Assembly: GCF_003309065.1 (NCBI RefSeq)
Contig: NZ_POAF01000006.1
Span: 186,001-250,000, forward strand
DNA: 64,000 nt
Direction of reading: 5' to 3'
Source of the DNA: Glutamicibacter soli
GTDB lineage: Bacteria > Actinomycetota > Actinomycetes > Actinomycetales > Micrococcaceae
Both the position numbers and the translations under genes were made by a program. Below, piece by piece: positions 42,770 to 49,825 of the stretch. The notes under the pieces were generated by a model, which saw only the letters and a list, made by a program, of their open reading frames with translations, made no database searches and had not been told where the DNA came from. Each line of letters begins with the position of its first letter. The first letter of the stretch is position 1.

Positions 42770-43894
42770 ATGGACTTGAAACAATCCCTGCTCGCCGGGC
42801 GCCGCGGCCGCCGGCTGCTCAGCAGTATCGTGCTGTCCGGGACCGCCCCCGAGGCGCAACACCTGATGCGTTCGGTGTTCGACGCGTCCTTCGAATTGGC
42901 GCAGCAACGAGGCGACGGGGTTGTGCGCTTCACCATGGCCGAGGAAAGTGCAGGTGCAGAGCCGCAGGAATCCGCCGCGGATGAAACGGCGCCATCGATT
43001 GCCCAGATTGCGCAGATGCTCCGCACCGTGCCCCTGCCCGAAGCGATGCCCGAGCTGATTCGCTCAGCGCTGGCGGACAGCGTCGATTGGGCCATGTACT
43101 GGCAGCCTCCGGATGCCGAGGACACCTTGTTCGGCGACCCCCGACTCGTTCAAGCACTGGAGCGGGTAGCAGAGCATGTCGCGTCAACCGGCATCATCCA
43201 GAGCTGGATGGGCGCATCCACGCAGGCGAACCAGTGGATGATCACCTGGACGGGCGAAAGCGCCGAAGGCCAGTGGGAACCGGGCCTTGAACCTGCGCAA
43301 TCCCAGCTGAAGGCGTGGAACCTCGATCTCGCGGAGAAAGAACGCGCCAGCAAGGCAGACCTGGGGGAAAAGATGGACCAGCTGGCCAGCGGGCACTGGT
43401 GGTCGAATCCGCCGGGCGGGCTGTACCGCAGCTTCGGAACCTTCGAGCTTGAAGAGCCCATCGGCCTGGCTTGTGTGGAGGACGGCATGGGATGGAGCTC
43501 GGCGCTGGTGCGGCGCCTGCAGATCGAATGCCGGAAGCCGGTATTCCACATCACCGAGCCAAGGCACTGGGCCGATTTGTGCCGCCGCTACCCGCTGGAA
43601 GTCAGCGCAACGATGCGGCGCAACTGGTTTGAAACGACCGGGCGCGACGGGCTCTGGGTCCAGCCGGACTGGCAGGCCGTGGCCGAGGACTACGACGGGG
43701 TGCATCTGGGCCTTGGCGCCTATCTGGCCGGAGCGGGGGAGATCATCGCGGTGGATGCCCGGCGCGCCAGCGTCATCGCCGGATGGAACCCCGATGAGAC
43801 CTACTGGTTCACCGATGCCGTGCAACCGGTGGACGAGGTGCGTACGTGGGGAATCAGTGATGCGGGTGGGCGCGATGTTTGGTTGCGAAGATAG
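42770..43894 (+). CDS. conserved hypothetical protein
   Basis: A 374-residue protein I cannot assign. The N-terminal half is helical with an acidic, Ala-rich stretch (ESAGAEPQESAADETAPSIA); the C-terminal third is Trp-rich (WFETTGRDGLWVQPDWQAVA, YDGVHLGLGAYLAGAGEIIA and AGWNPDETYWF). No signal peptide or TM segment. AAGGGAA 5 bp before ATG 42770 fixes the start; a GTG 15 bp earlier is less likely. Normal chromosomal composition. Confidence 0.75.
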   Translation: MDLKQSLLAGRRGRRLLSSIVLSGTAPEAQHLMRSVFDASFELAQQRGDGVVRFTMAEESAGAEPQESAADETAPSIAQIAQMLRTVPLPEAMPELIRSALADSVDWAMYWQPPDAEDTLFGDPRLVQALERVAEHVASTGIIQSWMGASTQANQWMITWTGESAEGQWEPGLEPAQSQLKAWNLDLAEKERASKADLGEKMDQLASGHWWSNPPGGLYRSFGTFELEEPIGLACVEDGMGWSSALVRRLQIECRKPVFHITEPRHWADLCRRYPLEVSATMRRNWFETTGRDGLWVQPDWQAVAEDYDGVHLGLGAYLAGAGEIIAVDARRASVIAGWNPDETYWFTDAVQPVDEVRTWGISDAGGRDVWLRR

Positions 43895-44024
43895 CCTTTG
43901 CGGTGCGCATGGACCCGGCATTCAGGACACTCCAGCGGGACGGTCCGCACTCGCGCAGCTCCAAGCTGTTCGGGTGCAAGCCGCCCCGCAGATTTTTTAG
44001 CGCCAATGCGCGACATCGCGGCGG
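43895..44024. other. short convergent intergenic region
   Basis: About 130 bp between convergent genes. No convincing terminator stem; a small CGCGA-CA-TCGCG palindrome and ATTTTTTAG tract are the only structures. Base composition changes here from GC-rich chromosome to the AT-richer 44-48 kb block. Confidence 0.5.
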
Positions 44025-44801
44025 CTAATGCGGTTCGGCGCGCCGCATGCGGATGAATCCCACCGCAAACGGCAGGAGAACCCATAGGGCAAATGAGGAC
44101 AACGCAGTGCCCATACTTCCGTCGCCGATCAAGGAATTGGACATCGAGGCGGTTTGCAGGAAAGGTCCGATGCCACCGGGCAGCAACAACAGCAGATTGT
44201 CGATGAGCAGCACTTGGATGATCACTATCACCACCGAAAGCGGCGTCGACAGCAACGCGGAGCCCAATGCCGCACCGCTCAGCGAACCGGCAAACGACAA
44301 CACAATTAGCATGCCGAGGACCTCCAGCGAACCTTGGGCAGTCCAGGCCATCCCAAAGGCGCTGGCCAGCCCGAAACTAACTGCCAGGCCGGTCGCGATG
44401 AACGCCGCGCAAAGAGCGACGCCGATGAGCACGGAGGTCACCAGTTTCGCCAGGAAAACACGGTGGCGACGTGGTTCCAACGCCAGAATCATCAGTATGT
44501 CCCGATGCTGCCAATCCATCGTATAGACCAGAATTCCAAGAATTGGGGTTCCCAAGGCCGCACATACGGTAAACGCCATCATGATGACTGAGAAGGACAA
44601 CTCGGCTTCCTCCTGGGCAATTAGCACCCAGCACACTCCGAAGGACAGCAAGAGCCCAAGCCCAAGCATGCTCCACAGCACTGACTGCCCGGAACGAACC
44701 GTTGTCAGTTTCCGAAATTCCAGCCCCACCAAGCGGCCCAGTGTGGGCCGGGATCCAACAAGCGGTTGCCGTTCTGGTGTATCAGTGGTTTTCATAGTCA
44801 A
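44025..44801 (-). CDS. ABC-2 type permease
   Basis: A 258-residue membrane protein with six TM segments. After a ~35-residue cytosolic start (LVGLEFRKLTTVRSGQS), the EFRK motif and overall plan match the permeases of bacteriocin/lantibiotic immunity and export ABC systems (BcrB/LanE-type). It overlaps the ATPase gene by 4 bp and is the last gene of the operon that begins with the Trp-rich secreted peptide. Likely role: export of, or self-protection against, that peptide. Confidence 0.83.
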   Translation of the reverse strand: MTMKTTDTPERQPLVGSRPTLGRLVGLEFRKLTTVRSGQSVLWSMLGLGLLLSFGVCWVLIAQEEAELSFSVIMMAFTVCAALGTPILGILVYTMDWQHRDILMILALEPRRHRVFLAKLVTSVLIGVALCAAFIATGLAVSFGLASAFGMAWTAQGSLEVLGMLIVLSFAGSLSGAALGSALLSTPLSVVIVIIQVLLIDNLLLLLPGGIGPFLQTASMSNSLIGDGSMGTALSSFALWVLLPFAVGFIRMRRAEPH

Positions 44802-45709
44802 AGTACTTCCGTCCGGTGAACACTGTATTCACCCTGTGTAAGGCGCAGGTAGGCTTCCTCCAGCTGGTGCTCCTGTTGCGATCCCAGCGAGGTGATCAGT
44901 ATTCTGTGCTCCATGGCAATCTGCGCCACCTGTCGATTGCTGGCCTGGACCTTGAGCCAACCAGGGACGGCATGGTCCGAGACGGCAAATCCATGAGCCA
45001 GCAGCAACTTGGCGAGTTTCTCCGGCTCGTCGGCTTCGACGCTGACTTGTGAATCCGGGTTGCTGAGATCCGACAGCGTGGATTCCGTCGCGACGCTGCC
45101 GCGGTCGATGATGACCACGCGATGAGCGTAGGATTGCAGCTCCTGCAGGAGATGGCTGGAAACCAAAACGCTTCCCCCGTCCTGGGCGAACCCTGTCAAC
45201 AAGCCGCGCAGCCAGCTGATGGCTTCGATGTCCAGCCCGTTGACGGGCTCATCCAGGATCAGGCACCGAGGACGCCCCAGGATTGCAATTCCAAGCCCGA
45301 CGCGCTGGCGCATCCCGAGAGAGAGGGACTTGAATCGTCGTTTGGCAACAGATTCCAATCCCATTTGCTCAATAACTTCGTCGCGGCGGCTGTTGCTGAT
45401 CCCGAGCATGCCTGCTGCAAGACTGAAGCTGTCGCGAACATTTCGTCCTGGATGCCGAGCGGCTGCGTCCAGCAGCGAACCGACTGCCGCTCCCGGGTTC
45501 GGCAGGTCGGAATACCTGACCCCGTCGTAAAGAATGGAGCCTGAATCGGGGGTGCCCAGACCCAGCACCATTCGCATCAGCGTAGATTTTCCGGAACCGT
45601 TAGGGCCCAAAAGGCCGGTGATTTGTCCTGCAGGTATCGAGCACGATATCTCCTTGAGGATATGCGCCTTCCCGTAATGCTTGGATACCGAAGAAACTTG
45701 GATATGCAT
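44798..45709 (-). CDS. ABC transporter ATP-binding protein (BcrA-type)
   Basis: A 303-residue ATPase. Walker A GPNGSGKST, signature LSLGMRQRVGLGIA, Walker B RCLILDEPVNGLD, H-loop VSSHLLQE. The ~75-residue C-terminal extension after the ATPase core is typical of BcrA/CcmA-type multidrug and bacteriocin ABC systems. Its neighbours on the same strand are 2 bp (upstream membrane protein) and a 4-bp overlap (permease), so the operon is translationally tight. Confidence 0.9.
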   Translation of the reverse strand: MHIQVSSVSKHYGKAHILKEISCSIPAGQITGLLGPNGSGKSTLMRMVLGLGTPDSGSILYDGVRYSDLPNPGAAVGSLLDAAARHPGRNVRDSFSLAAGMLGISNSRRDEVIEQMGLESVAKRRFKSLSLGMRQRVGLGIAILGRPRCLILDEPVNGLDIEAISWLRGLLTGFAQDGGSVLVSSHLLQELQSYAHRVVIIDRGSVATESTLSDLSNPDSQVSVEADEPEKLAKLLLAHGFAVSDHAVPGWLKVQASNRQVAQIAMEHRILITSLGSQQEHQLEEAYLRLTQGEYSVHRTEVL

Positions 45710-45711
45710 GC

Positions 45712-46101
45712 TTATTCAACGCCCTTTGGGATTCGATGATCTACCATTGCGCCAATGATCGAGCCGATGAAAGCTATGGCCAGCGCGCCGACGAGGGTCA
45801 GAACGCTGATCAGCGGGTTGGACTCCCCGGCTGTAGCAAACGAGGTAACCACCCGGCCGAGGACCACTAGTACGGCGACGGCAACAGCAACGGTGATGAT
45901 CCAAAAACCCTTCGATGTGGCTTTCCCCTTGGTGAACGTTTCGGCGAAACTTTTCTCCGGACCGAAAAGTTCCAATGGGGTGCTTTGAGCCGCCTCGGAT
46001 TCCGCGCGGACTTCCCGGAGGGTTTGTGCGACGACGGACTCCGGCATGCGGCGCCAGCGAAGCTGATAGGCCAGGTTCTTGAAGTATTCGTCGTTCATCA
46101 T
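45712..46101 (-). CDS. small protein with PadR-associated helical domain and two TM segments
   Basis: A 129-residue protein. The first ~55 residues are a charged helical bundle (YFKNLAYQLRWRRMPESVVA, then LREVRAESE) of the type commonly encoded beside PadR regulators and ABC transporters (HAAS/DUF1700-like). Two hydrophobic segments follow (about 68-90 and 97-120). It probably links regulator and transporter, as in other PadR-HAAS-ABC cassettes. It lies one base after padR. Confidence 0.68.
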   Translation of the reverse strand: MMNDEYFKNLAYQLRWRRMPESVVAQTLREVRAESEAAQSTPLELFGPEKSFAETFTKGKATSKGFWIITVAVAVAVLVVLGRVVTSFATAGESNPLISVLTLVGALAIAFIGSIIGAMVDHRIPKGVE

Positions 46102-46102
46102 G

Positions 46103-46447
46103 TCAGTGCTTCTCTTCGTCTAGTAATTGATTGGTGACCGCAGTGAACTCACGCCACATTTTGGTCTCCGTTTTCAGAGCAACAAGGCCGGCGGCGGTGA
46201 TTCGATATGTCTTGCGGCTTGGGCCGTGCTCCCCTTCTACCCATTCAGTCTCGACCAATTCGTCGTCGACGAGGCGTCGGAGGAGCGGATACAGGGTTCC
46301 TCCGCCAACATTCCCGAGGCCGTAGCCCGCCAACAATCCGATAACTTCATGCCCGTACGTTCCGCTGTGGCGATGGATGGTCCTCAGCACACATAGCGTC
46401 AAGGAAGCCTTGAGCCACCCGCTGGGCCATTTCTCCGCTTGATTCAT
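46103..46447 (-). CDS. PadR-family transcriptional regulator
   Basis: A 114-residue winged-helix repressor: LKASLTLCVLRTIHRHSGTY, YGHEVIGLLAGYGLGNVGGG-T-L-YPLLRRL and the wing SRKTYRITAAG. The start at 46447 is two bases past the CPBP gene stop. A TAGATCG-N5-CGATCTA palindrome immediately before it may be its operator. PadR proteins respond to toxic compounds and control ABC exporters; the inducer here may be the operon's own peptide or a cell-wall stress signal. Confidence 0.88.
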   Translation of the reverse strand: MNQAEKWPSGWLKASLTLCVLRTIHRHSGTYGHEVIGLLAGYGLGNVGGGTLYPLLRRLVDDELVETEWVEGEHGPSRKTYRITAAGLVALKTETKMWREFTAVTNQLLDEEKH

Positions 46448-46449
46448 AA

Positions 46450-47127
46450 CTAGATCGTAATCCGATCTACAAAGGAAGTCAATGAAGGTCGCTTTGCGTT
46501 GCCAAGGAGCAGTAGCCAGCTGACCGCAAGGACCAGCGCAATATCCATGCCGAGAATCACGGGACCTACCAACAACTCGCTGGCTGTTTCCGAAAGGGAT
46601 ATAACCATGAGATTGGCGATCAAGTGAGTGGCTGCAGAGGCAATCCATGAGCCAGTCAGCGCACATATGGCGAATGCCGCCAAGGAAAACAATGCTCGAT
46701 CAGCAACTAGCCAGGGGTTGCTGATCGGGTGGGCTAGGCAGAATCCAACAGTCGCTGCAGCTGGGATCATCCATCGATGGCGTGGACGAAGATGCTTGCG
46801 CATCCTCCAGGGAAAGTACCTGAAGGCAAGCTCTTCGGCACATGAGGCGAGGGCCAGCCCGATGAGCACTGCGGGAGACGTCCACTGGGCGACTCCCGCG
46901 ATCAAGGCGAATAGGACGGCGACCACGCCTATGAATTTTCCGGTAGACGGGCTTCCGGCTTCTGGATATTTTTCAGGGTTGTTGCAGATCAGGTAGGCGG
47001 CCGTGGCCGCGGTTGCCATAACGAGCGCGCCAAACCATTCGCTCGCCACGAGGTGATCCCATGCTAGCGCCAGGCTAGCGAGAGTTAGCATGGCGCTGAT
47101 GGCCACATATGCAAGAAGTCTTGTCAT
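46450..47127 (-). CDS. CPBP (Abi/CAAX-like) intramembrane protease
   Basis: A 225-residue protein with about seven or eight TM segments. The CPBP catalytic motifs are all present: E-E-L-A-F-R in LASCAEELAFRYFPWR, F-C-L-A-H in TVGFCLAHPISN, and H-L-I-A-N. Such proteins are known immunity or processing factors in class II bacteriocin loci. It is the second gene of the operon, 55 bp after the Trp-rich peptide gene and separated from it by a stem-loop, so it is expected to be expressed at lower level than the peptide. Confidence 0.88.
   Translation of the reverse strand: MTRLLAYVAISAMLTLASLALAWDHLVASEWFGALVMATAATAAYLICNNPEKYPEAGSPSTGKFIGVVAVLFALIAGVAQWTSPAVLIGLALASCAEELAFRYFPWRMRKHLRPRHRWMIPAAATVGFCLAHPISNPWLVADRALFSLAAFAICALTGSWIASAATHLIANLMVISLSETASELLVGPVILGMDIALVLAVSWLLLLGNAKRPSLTSFVDRITI
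46451..46469 (-). promoter_or_regulatory. palindrome at the CPBP/padR junction
   Basis: TAGATCG-TAATC-CGATCTA lies in the last codons of the CPBP gene and ends four bases before the padR ATG. Position and symmetry suit a PadR autoregulatory site, possibly with an internal promoter, but overlap with coding sequence means it could be chance. Confidence 0.45.
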
Positions 47128-47145
47128 TTCGAATTGGGTTCTACA

Positions 47146-47174
47146 GGGTCGCCCGCGTTGCTCGCGGGCGACCC
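47146..47174 (-). terminator. attenuating stem-loop between peptide and CPBP genes
   Basis: GGGTCGCCCGC pairs perfectly with GCGGGCGACCC around a 7-nt loop, 8 bp after the peptide stop codon and 18 bp before the CPBP start. No long T-run follows, so it is likely a partial terminator or 3'-stabiliser giving high peptide and lower downstream expression. Confidence 0.7.
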
Positions 47175-47182
47175 GCTAGATG

Positions 47183-47647
47183 CTAGAAGAAGTAGTGCCA
47201 GAGAGCGTCGAAGAGCTCCCAGAGGCCACCCGAGGCAACGAAGTCGATTCCCCAGCGGATCCACGAAGCGAGGCTATTCCACCATTTCTTAAACGCGTTC
47301 CATCCTTTTTTGACGGCGGACTTCATGCTGTTCCAGATTTGAGGAGCATTTTTCTTGATCCAGTCAATGACTGGCTTGATGCTGATTCTCTTCTGCGCGT
47401 CGGAGGCCGAAGCTGTTCCGAGATCCGGGGAGGCGACGCTGCGCGTGCCGCTATCCGCAGCAATGGATCCGGACGATACGGTGCTCGCCGACGATGCGAC
47501 AGTTTGGACGGACGAGATTGAGGGCTGGGCAATGGCGCTAGCGGCTCCGGTAACTGGCGCAAACAGCAGGGCGCCACAGAGTGCCGCAGCCAGGGTGCGA
47601 CGCTTGATCGGATTGGCCGATGGCGTCGTCTTTCGAGCTTGACTCAT
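47183..47647 (-). CDS. secreted precursor with Trp/Lys-rich C-terminus (candidate bacteriocin)
   Basis: A 154-residue product with three zones. Residues 1-40 are a Sec-type signal (NPIKRRTLAAALCGALLFAP, cleavage near AxA at 36-38). Residues 41-88 are a low-complexity Ser/Ala/Thr/Val stretch. Residues 89-154 are a cationic amphipathic segment with nine Trp (96, 105, 116, 122, 123, 129, 132, 143, 150) and eight Lys, ending GLWELFDALWHYFF. This resembles Trp/Lys-rich aureocin A53-like bacteriocins or long-pro-region bacteriocins such as closticin, but I recognise no family. AAAGGAAC precedes ATG 47647. It heads an operon with CPBP, PadR and ABC genes, which strongly supports an antimicrobial or membrane-active role. 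Lower GC than the chromosome. Confidence 0.72.
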   Translation of the reverse strand: MSQARKTTPSANPIKRRTLAAALCGALLFAPVTGAASAIAQPSISSVQTVASSASTVSSGSIAADSGTRSVASPDLGTASASDAQKRISIKPVIDWIKKNAPQIWNSMKSAVKKGWNAFKKWWNSLASWIRWGIDFVASGGLWELFDALWHYFF

Positions 47648-47718
47648 TTCGAGTTCCTTTGTCTCTCTTGTGAATGATGATGGTCCTGCAGGATCCGAGA
47701 CTAATGTATATAAATCCA

Positions 47719-47739
47719 TCGCATTTATGTCCAATGCGA
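47719..47739 (-). promoter_or_regulatory. inverted repeat in the promoter of the peptide operon
   Basis: TCGCATT-N7-AATGCGA lies 72 bp before the peptide start and just upstream (in the leftward sense) of the AT-rich TTTATATACATT that could be the -10 region. This is a good position for an operator; the binding protein may be PadR or another regulator. Confidence 0.5.
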
Positions 47740-48309
47740 CAAAATGTTAAGGCAAGCGTGGTGCGTTTGGATATCCTGTAGCGGTTTGGCGGCAGAGTCA
47801 TGTTATATTGCCGTAAGTTGACTAAACCCCAATTCATTCACGCTAAGTTATCAAGTATTAGCAAGCAAGATGACCTATTTTTGTCTTGAGATCATTCTGA
47901 ATGCTTGTAGATGCGGTGCGTGTTTGGCCCCTGTTCGGCCGCCTGTTGCATCTGGGGGATTGACGCAGTTCGCGGTTGGCGACACAAAACACTATCTGTT
48001 AGTGTTTTGAACTGCTTTCTGATGGGTTGCGCAGTCCGTCCGTTCGGGCGCGGCCTAGCCGCACTTCCGAAAAAGGTATTTAAGGTCGGAACTTGCTTTT
48101 GCCTGTGCGGCAACAGATGCGTACGCGACAGCCTTGTGGCTTCCGTCAGATCGTTCGCCGACAGGCAATGAATGAGTAGCAGATGACCCTGTCGATTCGA
48201 AACGTGGCCCGTGCGCGGCACGCGATGGCGGTTGCAGAAGCAACTCGCGCGGTGCCGTGGCCTCAAAGATTTTCAGCGTTGGTTCGAATGCCAGGTGTAA
48301 TAGCGCCAA
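47740..48309. other. gene-free region upstream of the peptide operon
   Basis: About 570 bp with no ORF I accept. It includes AAAACACTA-TCTGT-TAGTGTTTT (47986-48008), a terminator-like hairpin with T-tracts on both strands, and mixed composition, AT-rich on the left and GC-rich on the right. It looks like decayed mobile DNA joining the operon to the transposase remnant. Confidence 0.5.
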
Positions 48310-48612
48310 AGTTAAAGGTGCGCTGGGTGCCGAACGACAACGGGCTGTTCCGCCGGCCCCACGCATTCACGGACGCGGGGGCCAGCGAAGAAGCATCGGC
48401 ATTTGCGTCTGTGCCGGCCGCAGACCAAGAGCAAGGTGCAGCGGTTCAACCGGACGATGCTGGAGCAGTGGGCGTACGCGATCCGGTACCGCGCGGTGGC
48501 TGAGCCGGTTGCTGCTTTGCAGGAGTGGCTAGGTTATGAGAACTACCGTCGAGGGCAAGCTTCGCTGAAGGCCCGAGTACCGACCGACAGTGTTCTCAAC
48601 CTTGGCAACACA
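48310..48612 (+). pseudogene. remnant of an IS481/IS3-type transposase (C-terminal part)
   Basis: Two frames together read like the end of an rve-fold transposase: first VRWVPNDNGLFRRPHAFTDA (the D-N-G region), then after a frameshift near 48385 RPQTKSKVQRFNRTMLEQWA, AYAIRYRAVAEPVAALQEWL, GYENYRRGQASLKARVPTDS. The canonical T-N-G-K-x-E-R-F has become T-K-S-K-V-Q-R-F, and the first ~200 residues and both inverted repeats are missing. It is decayed and not functional. It ends within a few bases of the pcaC stop codon, marking an old insertion at the edge of the pca cluster. Confidence 0.75.
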
Positions 48613-48613
48613 G

Positions 48614-49012
48614 CTAGGAGGCCTCGTACTCGGCCAAAACTTTCTTGCCGATCTTGAACGCGACGTTGGCCGCGGGCACCGAGCAGTAGATGGCGCTCTG
48701 GAGGAAAACTTCCTTGATTTCATCAGGGGTCATGCCGTTGCGCAGGGCCGCATGCACGTGCATTTCCAGCTCCTCCCAGTAGCCGCCGGCGATCATGGCG
48801 GTCAGGGTGATGGCGCTGCGGGTGGTGCGCGGCAGGCCGTCGCGGGTCCAGATGGTGCCCCAGGCGTAGCGGGTGATCATCTCCTGGAACTCGTCGGTGA
48901 AGTCGTTCGAGGTGCTGGTGGCGCGGTCGACGTGCTCGCCGCCGAGCACTTCGCGGCGCACCACCATGCCGGCGTCGTAGGTGTCGCCGGGCAGGCGCTG
49001 GGAGTCAGTCAT
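48614..49012 (-). CDS. pcaC: 4-carboxymuconolactone decarboxylase
   Basis: A 132-residue enzyme making 3-oxoadipate enol-lactone. Motifs are YDAGMVVRREVLGGEHVDRA, ITRYAWGTIWTRDGLPRTTR and YCSVPAANVAFKIG; GMTPDEIKEVFLQ is the family helix. Length is standard. In many actinobacteria PcaC is fused to PcaD as PcaL; here it is a separate gene 15 bp downstream of pcaD. It is the last pca gene on this strand, next to a transposase remnant. Confidence 0.95.
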   Translation of the reverse strand: MTDSQRLPGDTYDAGMVVRREVLGGEHVDRATSTSNDFTDEFQEMITRYAWGTIWTRDGLPRTTRSAITLTAMIAGGYWEELEMHVHAALRNGMTPDEIKEVFLQSAIYCSVPAANVAFKIGKKVLAEYEAS

Positions 49013-49027
49013 GTAGCTAGGCCTTTG

Positions 49028-49825
49028 CTAGTTGGCGGTGAAGAAGTTGATCAGCTCTCGTGCGGTCGCGGCCGGGTCCTCGGCCGGGGCCAGATGGGCC
49101 ACGGTGTCGATGACGGCGAAGGCTCCCTTCGGGGCGTGCTCGGCGATGAACTGCGCGTCGCTTGGCGGGCAGACCTGGTCGTGGGCGCCGTTCAGGCCCA
49201 GGATCGGATCGGTCATGGCCGCCAGCTGCTCGCGCAGGTCGAACCCGGCCAGCGCACCGCAGACGTGGGCGTAGGAGAAGCGGTCGGCATCCTGCAGGTT
49301 GTGCAGCAGGTTGGTGGAGGTGACCGCGTCCTTCTCGATGAAGCCGGGGGCGAACCAGCGCTGCGCGGAGCCGACCACCATGGTCGGGGTGCCGGCCTGG
49401 GCGGCCAGTTCGGCGCGTTCGGTCCAGGCTTCCGGGGTGCCGATCTTCGCCGCGGAGCACACCACGGACAGAGCCTTGAAAACGCCTGCATGGTCGTTGG
49501 CCAGCTGCAGGGCGATGGCCCCGCCCACCGAGACGCCGGCGTAGTACAGCGCCGCGTCCTGTCCGATGACGCCGTCGCCGCGCAGCGCGTCGATGGCGTC
49601 CATGACGCCCTGGGCGAGCTGCGCCATGGTGAACGGTTCGGTGGACGGCTTGCTTTCGCCGTGGCCGGGCAGGTCCCAGGCGATGAGCTGGAAGTGGTCC
49701 TTGAGGAAAGGCGCGGCCGGCCCCCATAGGTGCAGCGAGGAGGTGCCCAGCGAGGGGCCCAGGATCAGCGTCGGCAGCGAGGTATCGAGGTTCAGCAGCG
49801 AGGGGGTTAGTTGTGGGACAGCCAT
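49028..49825 (-). CDS. pcaD: 3-oxoadipate enol-lactonase
   Basis: A 265-residue alpha/beta hydrolase converting the enol-lactone to beta-ketoadipate. The nucleophile elbow is GVSVGGAIAL, the acid is in NGAHDQVC, the His is in TVAHLAPAE. It overlaps the end of pcaB by 19 bp, so translation is coupled; pcaC follows after 15 bp. ATG 49825 is where the conserved N-terminus MAVPQLTPSLLNLD begins. Confidence 0.93.
   Translation of the reverse strand: MAVPQLTPSLLNLDTSLPTLILGPSLGTSSLHLWGPAAPFLKDHFQLIAWDLPGHGESKPSTEPFTMAQLAQGVMDAIDALRGDGVIGQDAALYYAGVSVGGAIALQLANDHAGVFKALSVVCSAAKIGTPEAWTERAELAAQAGTPTMVVGSAQRWFAPGFIEKDAVTSTNLLHNLQDADRFSYAHVCGALAGFDLREQLAAMTDPILGLNGAHDQVCPPSDAQFIAEHAPKGAFAVIDTVAHLAPAEDPAATARELINFFTAN

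Follow-up and report, generated by a model that had tools for sequence, protein, structure and literature searches.

In Bacillus subtilis, the toxic peptide SdpC is made as a Sec precursor, and the skf operon, whose killing factor SKF is modified by a radical S-adenosylmethionine (SAM) enzyme, includes a CPBP-type protein. The SdpC gene, in sdpABC, lies beside sdpRI, a convergent operon encoding an autorepressor and a polytopic membrane receptor; SdpI serves as the receptor, confers immunity and keeps the autorepressor SdpR at the membrane, and in the skf operon the killing factor is accompanied by a self-protecting ABC pair, SkfEF (PMC1626106). In Bacillus cereus, AS-48, unlike nisin, induces the PadR/membrane-protein operon bcPadR1-BC4207, whose membrane protein increases resistance to AS-48 (PMC2774856). 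Binding of bcPadR1 to DNA is unchanged by AS-48 in vitro, which suggests indirect sensing, and bcPadR2 is found with a daunorubicin-type (DrrAB-like) ABC pump, an arrangement known for resistance (PMC3506622). HAAS-PadR pairs have been put forward as an alternative to two-component systems in membrane signalling and as general membrane-stress switches (PMC11237479). Circular and leaderless bacteriocins, such as enterocin AS-48, lacticin Q and aureocin A53, are cationic, disulfide-free, membrane-acting helical bundles (PMC6131525), and AS-48 has 70 residues and five helices (PMC4284732). The locus analysed here is a six-gene operon of Glutamicibacter soli, located in a stretch of 64,000 nucleotides (positions 186,001 to 250,000 of contig NZ_POAF01000006.1, assembly GCF_003309065.1; hereafter the window), and encodes an exported precursor, a CPBP protease, a PadR repressor, a HAAS-like membrane protein and an ABC exporter pair. 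Taking together its gene content, the conservation and linkage of the genes, a dyad upstream of padR, the acquisition of the DNA and the open ABC genes beside a broken peptide gene in Sinomonas, the locus probably belongs to a bacteriocin-like peptide family that is new to the literature and has inducible self-protection, in a circuit that is assembled from unrelated parts and wired as in SdpC/SdpI/SdpR.

The six minus-strand genes occupy 44025-47647 of the window and follow, from 47647 down, the order precursor, CPBP, PadR, HAAS-like protein, ATPase and permease (Table 1). A first-pass annotation, made from the sequence alone, had described a co-directional unit with tight spacing after the first gene, and the frames agree with it: 55 bp separate the precursor and CPBP genes, followed by a one-base overlap and then by gaps of 1, 2 and 2 bp; the overlap, at the CPBP-PadR junction, becomes a 2-bp gap if PadR begins at ATG 46447. 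The EExxxR, FxxxH and HxxxN motifs of CPBP proteases are found in the window protein and at the related loci L027, L030, L032 and L034. For the ATPase, the nearest NCBIfam model is TIGR03740 (lantibiotic-protection ABC ATPase), with 176.3 bits, below the cut-off of 309.75, and the permease matches no Pfam family.

Table 1. Features of the operon and of the surrounding island, in window coordinates.
Feature	Position	Strand	Evidence or remark
Acquired island, approximate extent	43895..48613		between two genes neighbouring in congener G008
ABC-2 type permease	44025..44795 (alternative TTG start 44801)	-	position and six hydrophobic segments
ABC ATPase	44798..45709	-	PF00005 (ABC_tran) E=3.7e-29
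HAAS-like protein, 129 amino acids	45712..46101	-	helical N-terminus and two transmembrane segments; without direct PF22564 match
PadR repressor	46103..46450	-	PF03551 E=1.8e-15; likely ATG at 46447
CPBP (Rce1-like) membrane protease	46450..47127	-	PF02517 E=1.7e-7; EELAFR, FCLAH and HLIAN motifs
Candidate PadR operator, 7-5-7 dyad TAGATCG-N5-CGATCTA	46451..46469		predicted site directly upstream of padR
Exported precursor, 154 amino acids	47183..47647	-	signal-like N-terminus, Ser/Ala-rich spacer, conserved C-terminal domain
Predicted mature peptide, residues 85-154 from QKR, five predicted helices	47186..47395	-	predicted cleavage site
Integrase-core remnant	48403..48657	+	PF13683 E=4e-5, under its cut-off; right end of island

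The precursor has 154 residues from the ATG (183 if a TTG start is used), with a basic N-terminus followed by a hydrophobic segment at residues 21-39. No curated family (Pfam, NCBIfam) matches it, and PDB sequences give no useful match, in keeping with the first-pass annotation, which had not recognised the type of the unit; a PF10518 match at E=0.054 appears in one of 13 members, in a row that is not named. Sdp families are not among the Pfam and NCBIfam matches at E<=1 for the precursor, PadR or the HAAS-like protein. A single-sequence search of 58 relatives gives 8/58 at E<=0.01, including G027 (E=3e-9) and G009 (E=2e-7), and profile searches match 13/395 genomes of the taxonomic family, 4/396 of the order, 4/394 of the class and 4/396 of the phylum. 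The window genome (G000) is counted in all these tallies, and its near twin G017 (G. protophormiae JCM 1973), whose precursor (L012) is 100% identical to the window protein, in those of family and order; the class matches G482 and G965 and the three other phylum matches were later rejected. In G965, G1157, G1196 and G1334, all rejected as members, the similarity lies only in the signal or low-complexity part, and G482 aligns at query residues 11-118, with no PadR, ABC pair or peptide-like protein among its neighbouring gene calls. The weak matches G042, G013, G031 and G021 of the 58-relative search were also rejected.

The peptide family, defined by the last ~70 residues of the precursor, contains 16 non-identical loci, that of the window and 15 further actinobacterial ones. 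Eight are linked to an ABC pair: the window, L027 (G336), L030 (Sinomonas sp. ASV322), L032 (S. humi), L034 (S. gamaensis, broken), L040 (S. susongensis, broken), L046 (G640) and L051 (G1077). Seven are PadR-type loci without an adjacent ABC pair: L010 (G009), L011 (G027), L026 (G118), L028 (G092), L029 (G065), L031 (G006) and L045 (G663). L033 (G267), a weak orphan member kept in the 16, possibly has a Tat signal, to which the PF10518 match in one of the 13 members may belong. The relation between the two types goes beyond chance, since a mature-part profile built solely from seven PadR-type relatives matches the L012 copy at E=1e-7, and hhalign joins the ABC-type and PadR-type mature parts with 95.7% and E=1e-8; the reverse search, with the ABC-type profile against the PadR-type members, is less even (E=1.7e-8 to 0.013). 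Two family members show a particular genomic setting. In G009 there are two adjacent peptide genes (L010:11685-11891), of which one is cut off by the contig end; at the opposite end of the same 95.9-kb contig (L035:1-264) a peptide gene begins. Either the replicon is circular or the assembly may have broken within tandem copies. In G027 the peptide-HAAS-PadR cassette (2 kb) lies between two perfect 81-bp direct repeats (L011:1-81 and 2136-2216), which may mark a mobile cassette or belong to a genome-wide repeat.

The predicted mature parts are cationic (net +3 to +13) and Cys-free in 12/12 rows, a set that represents 12 of the 16 loci and leaves L029, L033, L034 and L040 outside. The first-pass annotation had counted nine Trp and eight Lys in the C-terminal 66 residues of the precursor, and both counts are correct; the maximum in any 66 residues among 55 scored window gene calls is seven Trp, the precursor being absent from these 55 calls as its own score fell below the cut. 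A Trp-rich C-terminus holds for the Glutamicibacter, Arthrobacter and Sinomonas members, with 9-11 Trp per 68 residues in four rows, and fails as a family hallmark: over the 12 rows the content ranges from 2 to 11, with 6 and 3 in two other ABC-linked members and 2-5 in six PadR-type rows. Since Trp is high in one subgroup only, charge and helix pattern define the family better. The QKR ahead of the conserved part is invariant in four ABC-type members. AlphaFold2 models the last 70 residues as five helices, with a predicted local distance difference test (pLDDT) of 85 and a predicted template modelling score (pTM) of 0.69 (four other models, 68-76), and the Ser/Ala-rich spacer as disordered. 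The predicted charge and helices would suit a small cationic peptide made from a longer precursor and, with the length, recall AS-48 and the leaderless bacteriocins. Leaderless bacteriocins lack a leader or signal peptide, whereas the window precursor has a signal-like N-terminus and a spacer, and no relation to the circular or leaderless bacteriocins, which have a saposin-like fold, was found by sequence (PDB) or fold (Foldseek, VIA-align) searches. Searches of open-access papers, PMC9484092 among them, brought up no exported helical peptides of bacteriocin-like character described as a family in Micrococcales, and the present family appears not to have been described before.

The partner genes are distributed unevenly over the family. 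An ABC pair is present at 8/16 loci, CPBP at 6/16 (the window, L027, L030, L032, L034 and L046) and PadR with a HAAS-like protein at 9/16 (the window, L027, and the seven PadR-type loci), and the four Sinomonas loci show a HAAS-like protein without adjacent PadR; at L011 another ABC set about 4.4 kb away was excluded from the ABC count, and L033 (1/16) shows none of the partners. The first-pass annotation had proposed as a check a conserved operon whose C-terminus varies, and profile searches found a precursor family of this kind, linked at some loci to CPBP and ABC genes; neither of the two is a universal partner. The window genome has six PadR genes, so a gene picked at random has a chance of about 0.6% of lying within 2 kb of one, and the binomial for PadR linkage was computed on 9/14 loci, before two loci joined the set. 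At L046 the CPBP domain belongs to a 616-amino-acid protein whose gene directly follows those of the peptide and the ABC pair (L046:9080-10930). L051, in an 8.0-Mb genome, shows a 76-amino-acid membrane protein between the peptide and ABC genes (L051:5158-5388); it has no Pfam match better than E=0.49 and is a possible further immunity protein. CPBP occurs at 6/8 ABC-linked loci and was lost with part of the peptide gene in S. susongensis, and G009 has two adjacent peptide genes, which would suit a precursor that needs modification or a second peptide (two-peptide or modified class), with CPBP as its maturation enzyme. No modification enzyme is found in the operon by Pfam and NCBIfam, however, and most loci have a single peptide gene, and this explanation is improbable. 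The window operon resembles the skf operon in joining a putative killing factor to an ABC pair and differs from it in that it shows no radical SAM enzyme.

In all seven PadR-type loci without an adjacent ABC pair (7/7), the peptide gene faces a convergent unit of two genes, padR and the HAAS-like gene, the latter being the nearer (L010, L011, L026, L028, L029, L031 and L045). This layout, a repressor and membrane-protein unit convergent to a peptide gene, is that of the SDP system, with PadR and the HAAS-like protein in place of SdpR and SdpI. The window does not show it: all six genes are on one strand, and CPBP and the ABC pair are added. The first-pass annotation had called the fourth gene a helical/transmembrane protein; this is borne out by a helical N-terminus and two transmembrane segments, and its identity is corrected to that of a HAAS-like protein that partners PadR. 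When seven HAAS-like proteins of other loci are made into a profile, the window protein ranks first of 754 frames (E=8.7e-16), and L034 (E=8e-5) and L030 (E=5e-4) also match. Against PF22564 itself, the L027 protein gives E=6.4e-6 and 26.9 bits (cut-off 27) and that of L031 E=5.1e-4, with weaker or no match in the others. The GxP motif is present in the HAAS-like proteins of L010, L026, L027, L031 and L045, whereas the window and L011 have FGP. Known HAAS-PadR systems consist of a stand-alone PadR adjoining a HAAS-like transmembrane protein, as in 9/16 loci, the window among them, and the family differs from them by the pairing with a secreted peptide gene. With a HAAS-like partner identified, the window pair is likely a sensor/repressor module. 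PadR with a membrane protein or an ABC pump is also common to the B. cereus operons; their descriptions report no peptide gene, and the operator discussed there is ATGT/ACAT-like, unlike the window dyad.

Canonical PadR operators follow the pattern ATGT-N8-10-ACAT; operator scoring here covered general inverted repeats and the TAG/CTA dyad. A dyad with the consensus ~TAGATAG-N5-CTATCTA is found directly upstream of padR with 12 or 13/14 matches in 6/9 loci, two of them (L028 and L029) closely related. Of the dyads upstream of 14 peptide genes, the best reaches 10/14 (S. humi, without adjacent PadR) and the others are <=8, and the window contains no other match of >=11/14. The window dyad divides the peptide and CPBP genes from padR, the HAAS-like gene and the ABC genes, so that protection could be inducible by itself. 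The whole G000 genome has four dyad sites with two mismatches and 17 with three or fewer; two of the 17 (11/14) lie just upstream of two other G000 PadR genes. One of these PadR genes, with a three-mismatch dyad upstream, is on contig 18 (L115:148-492) and is followed by a HAAS-like gene, and the genome search shows one peptide gene only. The gene after the second resembles DUF1048.

The permease is present in 4/15 Sinomonas genomes, each time at a locus with the peptide gene or its remnant. The peptide frame is intact in S. humi and ASV322; in S. gamaensis it has an internal stop and CPBP is kept, and in S. susongensis CPBP and a portion of the peptide gene have been lost. For the ATPase, the permease and the HAAS-like protein, S. 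humi, S. gamaensis and S. susongensis all have open frames; the pairwise ratios of nonsynonymous to synonymous substitution (dN/dS) are 0.16-0.28, and 0.20-0.27 for the ABC genes alone, in a set of these three species with ASV322 outside. Relatives carrying the partner genes without any peptide had been named beforehand as evidence to the contrary, and two Sinomonas species do carry open ABC genes (one of them also CPBP) without an intact peptide gene, with a remnant of that gene still present. As the permease occurs only at the four peptide or remnant loci among the 15 genomes, the two broken loci are read as cases in which production was lost and immunity was kept; the pattern fits an immunity that outlasts production, and a grouping of CPBP with production fits on one case (S. 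susongensis). The same persistence of ABC genes could indicate that CPBP, PadR and ABC form a resistance cassette against foreign peptides, with the secreted protein as a decoy or peptide-binding shield, and a PadR with a DrrAB-like pump is an arrangement known for resistance (PMC3506622). This is improbable, given that the Sinomonas permease is confined to peptide loci and that the mature parts are cationic and amphipathic in 12/12 rows, more attacker-like than an anionic decoy.

The operon lies in an acquired island. In congener G008 the two flanking genes are about 11 bp apart by gene calls, which represents the empty site, and ten other congeners read at this slot show other genes. The island is also AT-richer, as first proposed: 1-kb windows inside 44.0-48.5 kb have a G+C of 0.54-0.585, against 0.63-0.74 in 38.5-44.5 kb and 48.5-54 kb, with one flank window, 38.0-39.0 kb, at 0.583. 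Compared with G. protophormiae in 500-bp bins, the block 43500-49499 is 98-100% identical and its sides are 74-98% identical, the contrast being stronger on the left, which suggests a recent exchange between species. The empty site, the G+C dip and the identity block all bear out the proposal of acquired DNA. In congener G004 four other genes, of 480, 207, 1161 and 340 amino acids, occupy the slot (L098:677-7428); in size and order they resemble a JetABCD/Wadjet defence set, and the chromosomal slot may be a hotspot for accessory modules. The acquisition also bears on another explanation, in which a secreted signal or envelope-stress effector takes the place of a killer peptide and tunes the cell's own envelope, with PadR/HAAS and ABC as an ordinary envelope-stress response. 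General membrane-stress switching is the role described for HAAS-PadR pairs (PMC11237479), G000 has another PadR-HAAS-like pair yet one peptide gene only, and seven loci are without adjacent pump or protease; the patchy spread (13/395 family genomes), the island acquisition and the broken peptide genes beside open ABC genes nevertheless fit accessory warfare better, and this explanation is unlikely.

For the window operon we infer secretion, cleavage, killing, sensing and protection in the following manner. The precursor would exit by the Sec route and be cut close to the conserved QKR. The product, a cationic, Cys-free peptide of 65-70 residues and several helices, would insert into the membranes of competing bacteria. 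PadR would repress its own promoter through the dyad just upstream until the HAAS-like membrane protein, sensing the peptide or the resulting membrane stress, takes it off the DNA; the padR, HAAS-like and ABC genes would then be raised separately from the peptide gene. The ABC-2 pump would clear the peptide from the membrane, and the CPBP protease may process the peptide or add immunity.

Several results weigh against a bacteriocin-like peptide with inducible self-protection. The partners are not universal: seven PadR loci are without adjacent ABC pair and CPBP, and PadR is missing at the Sinomonas loci, L046 and L051. The PF22564 model search misses the window HAAS-like protein, and the HAAS-like calls of L028 and L029 are made by motif and position only. 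Foldseek and VIA-align with the predicted peptide fold give nothing convincing, and the family profile A6 against PDB sequences gives 8 matches at E of 10 or less, with no bacteriocin among their names. The dyad is weak at L031 (10/14, P=0.02) and not significant at L011 and L026 (9/14), and its 17 genome-wide sites compare with 24 for the reversed control, so that it is rarer than the control. Since the consensus was drawn by eye from these same loci, the shuffle figures flatter the dyad, and its position is the stronger argument. At L027 the ABC genes precede the dyad, so the idea of separate induction fails there. In Sinomonas, the stop of S. gamaensis could be a sequencing error, and much of the ABC divergence may be older than the peptide loss.

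A more specific proposal, to which we give somewhat less than even weight, is that a circuit of the SdpC/SdpI/SdpR type was built a second time, out of unrelated components, with HAAS proteins as receptors for a secreted helical killer peptide that control PadR on its own dyad. If so, some of the HAAS-PadR pairs, for which few inputs are known, would be dedicated bacteriocin sensors, and the CPBP protease and ABC pump would have been added in Glutamicibacter and in the L027 genome. HAAS-PadR, a little-understood stress switch, would gain a specific trigger and a candidate operator, and the Sinomonas species would offer natural pairs, with intact and broken peptide genes, for studying immunity that outlives production.

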